NCBI RefSeq assembly: GCF_003353065.1
Contig: NZ_CP027806.1
Coordinates: forward strand, 620,001 to 684,000
DNA from: Cyclonatronum proteinivorum
GTDB taxonomy: Bacteria; Bacteroidota; Rhodothermia; Balneolales; Cyclonatronaceae
DNA length: 64,000 bases
Direction: 5' to 3'
The notes beneath the pieces are model-generated. The model had not been told where the DNA came from. It searched no databases and saw nothing but the letters and a program-made list of their open reading frames with translations. Made by a program: the position numbers and the translations under genes. The stretch's first letter is position 1. Each line of letters opens with the position of its first letter. Positions 57,967 through 59,568 of the stretch are shown one piece after another.

Positions 57967-58008
57967 AAAGCACAGGCGGTAGATCTATGCATCGCCTGTG
58001 CTTTTTTT
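57967..58008 (+). terminator. Terminator of the NTF2-like gene, overlapping the convergent gene's end
   Basis: The arms AAAGCACAGGCG (57967-57978) and CGCCTGTGCTTT (57993-58004) are perfect, with a 14-nt loop and a run of T on the + strand. The right arm lies inside the 3' end of the minus-strand WbqC-type gene. Confidence 0.85.
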
Positions 58009-58734
58009 ATGGCTGTTATCCGGCTGAAGCTTTCCGATAATCTGATAGCTGTAGGGCCCGTATTGAAACAGCAGATCAAGCACCGAGCAGCCTGCAAAGA
58101 AATCTCCCCATGGCTGCCGATAGATCGGGTGCTCAAAATCAACTTCGCGGATTAAACCATAACCACAGCTGTCTATTTTTCTGTAGTAACTGCCCCGCTG
58201 TTCAATTTGAATCAGGGGTTCATTATTACTATGATGCGTTTTGAGTTGTTCCTGAAAGCCGGCTGTGCTGACCCGGCTTATTCTGTTTTCAAGAAGCGAG
58301 GTGATTTCAAGGTACCGGGAGATGCGCTCGTTGAGGTAGAAAATAATATCGGTTAAATAGGTCAGGCCTGCGGCATGTTCAAAATCGGCTCTGATCTCAG
58401 GCTGATAGAAATCATAAAACCGGCTGTTTCCATAGTTGACCTGCAGAACCTTCATGAATGCTTCAGGCCAATTGATATTCTGATTTATGCGCACATGCCT
58501 GATGGGCTTTTTTTTATCTTCGCTCAAAACGGGCAACGTCAGCCACTGAGATTGAGAAGCGCTCCGTATCTGAGCACGGTGTGCTTTTCCCTTTCTGGAA
58601 AAAGGCTCATTTGTGAGGTAGTAAGTGTGCGCGGCATTTAGCACCACAAAGAGATGTTCGAGATCAGGTATTAAAGCGGGCATCAGGCAGCCAATGGTGG
58701 TTTTGGTGCTCAGATGATGGTCTGTTTTGGCCAT
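57985..58734 (-). CDS. WbqC-like family protein
   Basis: The 249-residue protein has the WbqC pattern: the N-terminal block IPDLEHLFVVLNAAHTYYLT with FSRKGKAHRAQIR, then WLTLPVL, VNYGNSRFYDFYQPEI and a C-terminal GDFFAGCSVLDLLFQYGP. WbqC-type proteins are found in O-antigen and glycolipid clusters and are thought to be enzymes of surface-glycan or related modification, but the reaction is not established. Here the gene is not in a glycan cluster. Start ATG 58734 gives a good N-terminus. It diverges from the Y1-transposase-like gene. Confidence 0.82.
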   Translation of the reverse strand: MAKTDHHLSTKTTIGCLMPALIPDLEHLFVVLNAAHTYYLTNEPFSRKGKAHRAQIRSASQSQWLTLPVLSEDKKKPIRHVRINQNINWPEAFMKVLQVNYGNSRFYDFYQPEIRADFEHAAGLTYLTDIIFYLNERISRYLEITSLLENRISRVSTAGFQEQLKTHHSNNEPLIQIEQRGSYYRKIDSCGYGLIREVDFEHPIYRQPWGDFFAGCSVLDLLFQYGPYSYQIIGKLQPDNSHKKSTGDA

Positions 58735-58842
58735 GAATCAGATTCCTGCAAAATTAAAGTAAAAAAATCAGTTGGCACTGTAAGGAAAAGGCGTGTTTTG
58801 ACTCTGTATGAGAAACACACTAACTACAAAAGCTTTTTTCCT

Positions 58843-59397
58843 ATGAAATATATTCTGACTGAACGCTATTTTTATATTCAGTTTAAAACTGAAAAAGACC
58901 GCTTGTTTCTGAAACGTGCCGACAGATTCGCATTTCTGAATGCCTGGAGAGCGTGTTTTACAAGCAAAATTAAAACCTGCTCTTATGCACTGGTTCCGGG
59001 TTGTTTTGGGGTAATCATTGGTTTAAATGCCAATGATGCTGAAGCTAATGAGGTGTTGTTCCATGTAAGCACTAAAGTGCGGGAACGCTTTATCGGCGTA
59101 ATTTCAAAAACAGATCTCGAAGATTTTGTGAAGCATGCACGCATTGAGGAACTCGTTACAGAAAAAGAGTGTGTATATCGTGCTTTCGACCTGCATACCA
59201 TGCCGCAGCGGTACAATGTTTCGACCGATTACAGAAGTTACCCGTTTTCGTCTTACCTGGCTCTTGCAACAGGCCGTCCAAGCAGTCTTGATCAGAAAAC
59301 GGTATGGAACTGGTTCGGAGGCCGCTCACGCTTCAGTCTGTTTCATCAGGCCTATTATGGATGGGTTCAGCCCGATGTGATGATTGGCAGGAGCTAA
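58843..59397 (+). CDS. Y1-transposase-like protein lacking the HUH catalytic motif
   Basis: I chose ATG 58843 because the longer frame from 58714 overlaps the neighbouring gene's 5' end. The 184 residues resemble REP-associated tyrosine transposases: an N-terminal YFYIQFKTEKDRLFL strand-helix region, a central helix and the C-terminal signature YPFSSYLALATGRP then NWFGGRSRFSLFHQAY. The metal-binding HUH motif, which in active enzymes reads MPNHFHLL, is here VPGCFGVII, so both His are lost. It has no terminal repeats around it. It is probably a domesticated or dead homologue; a role in nucleic acid binding is possible but not shown. Confidence 0.6.
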   Translation: MKYILTERYFYIQFKTEKDRLFLKRADRFAFLNAWRACFTSKIKTCSYALVPGCFGVIIGLNANDAEANEVLFHVSTKVRERFIGVISKTDLEDFVKHARIEELVTEKECVYRAFDLHTMPQRYNVSTDYRSYPFSSYLALATGRPSSLDQKTVWNWFGGRSRFSLFHQAYYGWVQPDVMIGRS

Positions 59398-59449: not shown

Positions 59450-59486
59450 CATAAAAAAAGCCGGACTCTCCAAGAGAGCCGGCTTT
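59450..59486 (-). terminator. Terminator of the tRNA-Pro gene
   Basis: The arms AAAGCCGG (59457-59464) and CCGGCTTT (59479-59486) with additional CTCTC/GAGAG pairing inside form a stable hairpin. On the minus strand it is followed by a T run (the A run at 59453-59459), just after the tRNA 3' end. Confidence 0.8.
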
Positions 59487-59494
59487 AGTTATTG

Positions 59495-59568
59495 TCGGGA
59501 TGACAGGATTTGAACCTGCGACCCCACGCCCCCCAGGCGTGTGCGCTACCGGGCTGCGCTACATCCCG
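59495..59568 (-). tRNA. tRNA-Pro (anticodon GGG)
   Basis: The 74-nt sequence folds into a cloverleaf. The acceptor stem pairs CGGGATG with CATCCCG, with discriminator A, T8 and a GGTAGCGC-type D loop. The anticodon stem is CACGC/GCGTG around CTGGGGG, giving anticodon GGG for proline codons CCC/CCU. The T arm contains GGTTCAAATCC. CCA is not encoded (CAA follows). It lies alone with its own hairpin terminator. Confidence 0.95.

Follow-up and report, generated by a model that had tools for sequence, protein, structure and literature searches.

The question raised by this locus is whether an open reading frame that resembles a REP-associated tyrosine transposase (RAYT), and lacks the histidines of its HUH motif, is a transposase remnant or a host gene, and which role such a gene may have. 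"The window" designates the whole stretch of 64,000 nucleotides that was analysed, and the features discussed are listed in the table (genomes other than the own genome are given as G numbers, loci as L numbers). The preliminary description of the locus had reported an open frame, and this frame was recovered with exactly the same limits. The mechanically predicted ORF is longer (start at 58714, 227 aa); the start at 58843 was preferred to 58714, and is supported by a first methionine that is invariant in all 11 members of the family and by a promoter element that lies inside the longer ORF. The gene has the WbqC-family gene, the tRNA-Pro and dps/recJ close by in its own genome and in G005 and G003. 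These neighbours are not kept in G001, G006, G008 and G009, and a conserved operon partner was thus rejected.

Table. Coordinates of the gene, of its catalytic-site remnants, of its surroundings and of the candidate regulator
Feature	Position	Strand	Evidence
CDS of the catalytically dead RAYT-derived protein (dead RAYT), 184 aa plus stop	58843..59397	+	open frame, relatives, fold, profile
Codons 51-56, VPGCFG, at the HUH histidine site of intact RAYTs	58993..59010	+	alignment
Codons 116-120, DLHTM (in intact RAYTs the first is the Tyr and the last the Asn of Y---NP), followed by Pro121	59188..59202	+	alignment
Codons 107-169, best-conserved part of the family, including the common C-terminal signature	59161..59349	+	family alignment
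Competence-type promoter element TGTAAGG-N16-CTCT, first T 64 nt before the ATG	58779..58805	+	best-scoring site on both window strands, two matrices
Inverted repeat lying between the dead RAYT gene and tRNA-Pro; reads like a terminator, occurs once, no REP family	59451..59492		sequence reading, repeat search
WbqC-family gene, upstream, opposite direction, ordinary neighbour	57985-58734	-	Pfam
tRNA-Pro, downstream, ordinary neighbour	59494-59568	-
ECF-like sigma gene, own genome	C1:365029-365574 (L164 946-1491)
Anti-sigma-like gene, own genome	L164 1722-2720

The kinship with Y1 transposases, proposed from the letters of the window, is missed by single-sequence searches and was established through relatives of the protein and through its fold. 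Pfam searches with the window protein returned no family and no PF01797 match, NCBIfam, PHROGs and Pfam searches with the window protein or the 11-row family alignment gave matches at chance level only, and PDB sequence searches with either query returned no Y1 protein (a Cullin-3 match, E 0.15, was set aside as chance). Full-length open relatives were found in 8 other genomes with E-values from 3e-87 to 3e-33, far beyond chance. When 97 relatives were searched, all 6 genomes of the genus matched strongly, as did G006, G008 and G009, and G002 and G004 each had a second gene copy; intact RAYTs from a different family matched more weakly (best E 3e-13, 25% identity). The profile of the dead family matched that of intact RAYTs (a set picked in part via matches of the dead family itself) at 99.5% over 165 columns. 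The AlphaFold model, predicted from the dead family alone, had a pLDDT of 88.4; its best structural match was 4er8, the E. coli RayT bound to a REP hairpin (Foldseek E 2e-5), which it superposed with a Z score of 13.9 over 151 residues (rmsd 3.3), the next-best match reaching Z 8.4. Like the Cullin-3 match, a match to Thg1 (Z 8.4) was discounted, such matches being put down to chance or to a widespread arrangement. The TnpA proteins of IS200/IS605 have a related fold, with a far weaker match than RayT (for example 2f4f, Z 8.2), and the dead family differs from them in its lost catalysis and in lacking a PF01797 match. With RayT the window protein thus shares the fold, full-length profile similarity, a basic charge and the C-terminal signature YPFSSY...NWFGGRSRFSLFHQ, which is real and falls within the best-conserved part of the family. 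Among the RAYT classes set out in PMC6006769, class 2 is the closest to the family, which may lie near subclass 2.6.

The catalytic residues were compared in an alignment of the 11 family members, 31 intact relatives and E. coli RayT, the divergent L035 being left out. The motif of class-2 RAYTs is Y---NP, as given in PMC6006769. Both HUH histidines, the catalytic Tyr and the Asn of this motif are gone in all 11 members and kept in all 31 intact relatives. The replacement of MPNHFH by VPGCFG, read earlier from the sequence, is confirmed in this alignment, since the 31 relatives have His in both HUH columns; the loss of the Tyr and of the Asn goes beyond that reading. The Tyr column holds Asp in 10 members (Asp116 in the window protein) and Glu in the other (G004b), and the Asn column holds Met120 in the window protein. 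Five residues (W35, R36, G85, R131 and Q169) are invariant in the dead family and none is a conserved RAYT residue; 24 of the 36 invariant or nearly invariant positions fall in residues 107-169. Judged from sequence comparison, the window gene is a domesticated, catalytically dead RAYT. At L035 (1462-1956, in G019) lies an altered RAYT relative in which a pattern search finds neither HUH nor Y---NP (it reads KDNSH and AYVHRLP), possibly a second, independent disarming of a RAYT.

An alignment search that covered 11 genomes from its bacterial family recovered the gene in 9 of them, with 11 members in total; the two genomes without it, G007 and G010, belong to one genus and are 89% and 95% complete. 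Across 394 sampled genomes from the phylum, with at most 8 candidates scored per genome, the matches next after the bacterial family start at E 5e-23. The relatives of at least 150 aa that were read outside the bacterial family keep HUH by pattern except L029 and L035, and L029, with THFH, keeps two His. Unlike RAYTs, the dead family is therefore confined to one bacterial family within the genomes searched. Its 11 proteins form one clade (support 100/100, tree of 43 rows) on a long stem, and a single domestication of a RAYT within the bacterial family is the best explanation. Identity to the window protein (67, 50, 49, 48, 42, 41, 39, 33, 33 and 33%) drops roughly in the order given by GyrA. 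A tandem second dead RAYT gene lies at L014 381-935 (G002) and at L015 2247-2804 (G004), each copy with its own TGTAACG element.

Selection on the gene is purifying. Between the own genome and G005, differences at the three codon positions are 0.28/0.15/0.57, with pS 0.81 and pN 0.20; dS is saturated in 12 of 15 family pairs, and the unsaturated pair G002a/G004a has a dN/dS of 0.085. In the comparison of the own genome with G005, the neighbouring WbqC gene evolves faster (pN 0.33) and Dps and RecJ slower (0.06 and 0.07). The homologues and the purifying selection that had been proposed as a check on the preliminary description were thus found, and its proposal of retention as a domesticated gene is backed by profile, fold, the single clade, selection and a kept promoter. 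For the linked REP-like palindromes that it suggested looking for, no support was found: none lies by the gene and none is repeated within the 64-kb window, which in these surroundings is a further difference from RAYTs. At the intact RAYT of the own genome, the search for REP palindromes gave three inverted pairs, the best of them inside the gene, and no direct repeats.

The main functional clue, absent from the preliminary description, is a competence-type promoter element. The pattern TGTAA[GC]G-N16-NT occurs upstream of all 11 dead-family genes, its first T 52-64 nt before the ATG in 10 of them and 161 nt before it in G001, where a further TGTAACG, some 50 nt before the ATG, lacks the second box. 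The first pattern used, TGTAASG-N16-STCW, had 17 matches in the own genome versus 14 for the reversed control, and with one mismatch 3 matches in the window versus 4.7 expected, which is not above chance; counts alone were therefore not used. The own-genome matches precede the intact RAYT, a YifB/ComM-type gene, radC, cas6, an N-terminal integrase fragment and an anti-sigma-like gene, and some fall inside unrelated genes. The 9 carrier genomes together contain the string TGTAAGGWTTT 121 times versus 49 for the reversed control, and the 2 non-carriers contain it 6 versus 10 times; two carriers show little or no excess (G008, 13 versus 13; G001, 12 versus 10).

Two matrices were built without dead-family or RAYT sites. 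With the 43-site matrix, which includes two spurious sites (second matches in L305 and L306), the window site ranked first on both strands (23.0, next 9.0), and the 11 dead-family genes scored 15.7-32.0 versus at most 9.0 for 1986 control stretches. The 27-site core matrix prefers WTTT after TGTAAGG; as 26 of its 27 sites were picked via exact TGTAAGGWTTT, only its -10 box and spacing are independent. With this matrix the window site was still first (13.4, next 9.0), and 10 of the 11 dead-family genes exceeded the best of 108 other upstream regions (9.0), G002a falling below it at 7.9. Among 11 held-out anti-sigma loci, the right site scored best in 8 (L303-L307, L309, L312 and L320) and was missed in 3 (L308, L310 and L311). 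All 26 core competence sites have the T of the -10 box at a single offset, versus 12 of 25 sites without an ORF.

The genes behind the element were identified by scanning, out of 125 sites, the 74 behind which an ORF of 80 aa or more begins with ATG no further than 300 nt away. RadC accounts for 9 of these ORFs (by loci, each of the 9 carriers contributes one) and the dead RAYT family itself for 7; the others include 4 SSB, 4 RecQ, 3 Mg-chelatase/ComM-type, 2 ComEC, 6 integron integrase-like, 3 IVP, 3 PDDEXK_3 and 2 lamin-tail proteins. Two ComF, one IS200 and two RAYT-type proteins and the ComM-type YifB of the own genome also stand behind the element, and in the own genome and G005 a ComEA-like HhH protein comes next after the first ORF (the profile comparison used the G005 protein). 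The dead RAYT gene thus has the same promoter element as comEC, comF, comM, radC and ssb of its lineage; ssb, recQ, comM, comEC, comF, the comEA operon, integron integrases and intact RAYTs have the element in fewer genomes than radC.

Some of these genes merit separate mention. Two integron integrase-like genes of the own genome lie behind the element (L202 901-1431 and L298 1181-1564); one stops after 177 aa and covers model positions 1-169 of 315, and the other keeps the N-terminal domain only. A Cas6-like gene of the same genome (L301 422-1150) lies 222 nt behind the element, so that a CRISPR locus may be tied to this regulon as well. In several genomes the element precedes IVP four-helix-bundle proteins (L219, L223 and L257) and GxxExxY-type proteins (L245, L225 and L294).

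Within the bacterial family, 7 of 8 loci with same-class intact RAYTs carry the element, with scores of 15.5-29.2 that are the best in each locus; the exception (1.3) is the locus of G010, a genome without the dead gene. Among wider RAYT loci, TGTAA[CG]G occurs upstream in 6 of 32 versus 5 of 314 control stretches. Since intact RAYTs bear the element, the gene from which the dead RAYT descends was probably subject to the same control already.

A candidate regulator was found beside the element. The order of an ECF-like sigma gene, the element (within 100 nt) and a TPR anti-sigma-like gene is present in 11 of 11 genomes (L164, L303-L312 and L320), the element reading TGTAAGG in 10 and TGTAAGT in G007; the contig of G003 (L320) holds only the end of the sigma gene. 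The sigma protein matches TIGR02937 significantly (E 3.7e-8, 33.2 bits, under the cut-off of 42.9) and Pfam region 2 with 20.6 bits, under the cut-off of 24. From its gene position, we infer that this sigma factor reads the TGTAAG element, and the whole unit is a candidate competence switch. The statement that genomes without the dead gene also lack the sigma factor was dropped, as G007 and G010 have the sigma/anti-sigma unit.

As the element is common to the dead RAYT and to DNA-uptake genes, the gene most likely belongs to a late-competence regulon. Such regulons occur in transformable bacteria, the pneumococcal ComX regulon being an example. The likeness lies in ssb, radC, comEC, comF and comM-type genes under one element; the differences are that here the element has an ECF-type look and goes with a sigma/anti-sigma pair, and that RAYTs and integron integrase-like genes are included. 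The loss of catalysis, selection and a DNA-uptake switch, taken together, point to a protein that probably assists in handling DNA during gene uptake and does not act as a mobile element. Nucleic-acid binding is plausible from the predicted fold and a basic pI (8.6-9.3 in 11 of 11 proteins), and because incoming DNA is single-stranded during transformation, a binder of single-stranded or hairpin DNA that does not cut would be the simplest role. According to PMC8266576, RayT binds REP hairpins, with contact residues that include Q95 and R104, and removal of its C-terminal 21-34 residues harms binding. The columns of Q95 and R104 are not conserved in the dead family, so that the ligand probably differs from that of RayT.

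The explanation that we favour, with somewhat better than even confidence, is that a RAYT was domesticated once, lost its cleavage residues and was kept as a late-competence host protein. In the proposed sequence of events, a single domestication in the bacterial family would have cost the protein its two HUH histidines, its nucleophilic Tyr and the Asn of Y---NP; the ECF-like sigma factor with its TPR anti-sigma would turn on the dead RAYT together with comEC, comF, comM, radC, ssb and recQ via TGTAAGG-N16-NT; and the RAYT fold would bind, without cutting, single-stranded or hairpin-forming DNA entering during transformation, for example protecting, delivering or sorting structured strands beside SSB and ComM. 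Several results weigh against this explanation: the unconserved Q95 and R104 columns, the sigma scores under the cut-offs, the small or absent motif excess in G001 and G008, the low G002a score with the 27-site matrix, the sigma/anti-sigma unit in G007 and G010, which lack the dead gene, and the neighbours that are not kept in four genomes.

Other explanations were weighed against it. A decaying transposase remnant with an accidental open frame would fit the lost catalytic residues, and is made highly improbable by frames without stops in 11 of 11 members, by purifying selection, by invariant residues that differ from the RAYT norm and by the promoter kept at every gene. It is unlikely that the protein has lost nucleic-acid binding and acts through protein-protein contacts as a scaffold or regulator of the competence machinery: the basic pI of all members and the whole RAYT fold kept in the predicted model speak against this, although conservation peaks C-terminally, at a distance from the HUH site, and known DNA-contact columns are not kept. 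The regulon might also serve DNA damage or stress in general, the protein handling broken or stalled single-stranded DNA, as ssb, recQ and radC are repair-linked too and a sigma factor of ECF-like type points to a stress signal; the element also stands at comEC, comF, the ComEA-like gene and comM-type genes, which makes this rather improbable.

An equally doubtful alternative is a dominant-negative or repressor form that binds hairpins or promoters of the intact RAYTs of the same cell without cutting. Five of the nine carriers have intact RAYTs of the same class (the own genome, G002, G003, G005 and G008), and these bear the same promoter element, but no same-class intact RAYT was found at E 1e-5 in the four others (G001, G004, G006 and G009, which are drafts). 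Other PF01797 proteins occur in G001, G006 and G009 and none in G004; PF01797 counts were dropped as a sign of absent intact RAYTs, because G005 has none by PF01797 and two by alignment A2.

Nuclease-dead domesticated transposon proteins are known in the TnpB-derived regulators. The likeness of the dead RAYT to these is that a nucleic-acid enzyme of a transposon is retained after loss of catalysis; they belong to an unrelated protein family, and no RNA guide is known for the dead RAYT. A literature search, in which subscription journals were thinly covered, found among the papers listed no case of RAYT domestication, of RAYTs associated with competence or of ECF-driven competence.

A broader proposal, which we hold tentatively and at somewhat less than even confidence, is that competence in these Balneolales, run by an ECF-like sigma/anti-sigma pair, has captured transposon enzymes that act on single strands. 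Integron integrases and intact RAYTs would be produced while the incoming DNA is single-stranded, and a disarmed RAYT would have become a dedicated chaperone for hairpin ssDNA in natural transformation. One proposed competence switch would thereby govern both RAYTs and integron integrases, and a RAYT kept without its cutting chemistry, under a DNA-uptake promoter, suggests that the binding of structured single-stranded DNA in transformation is the useful part of the protein.
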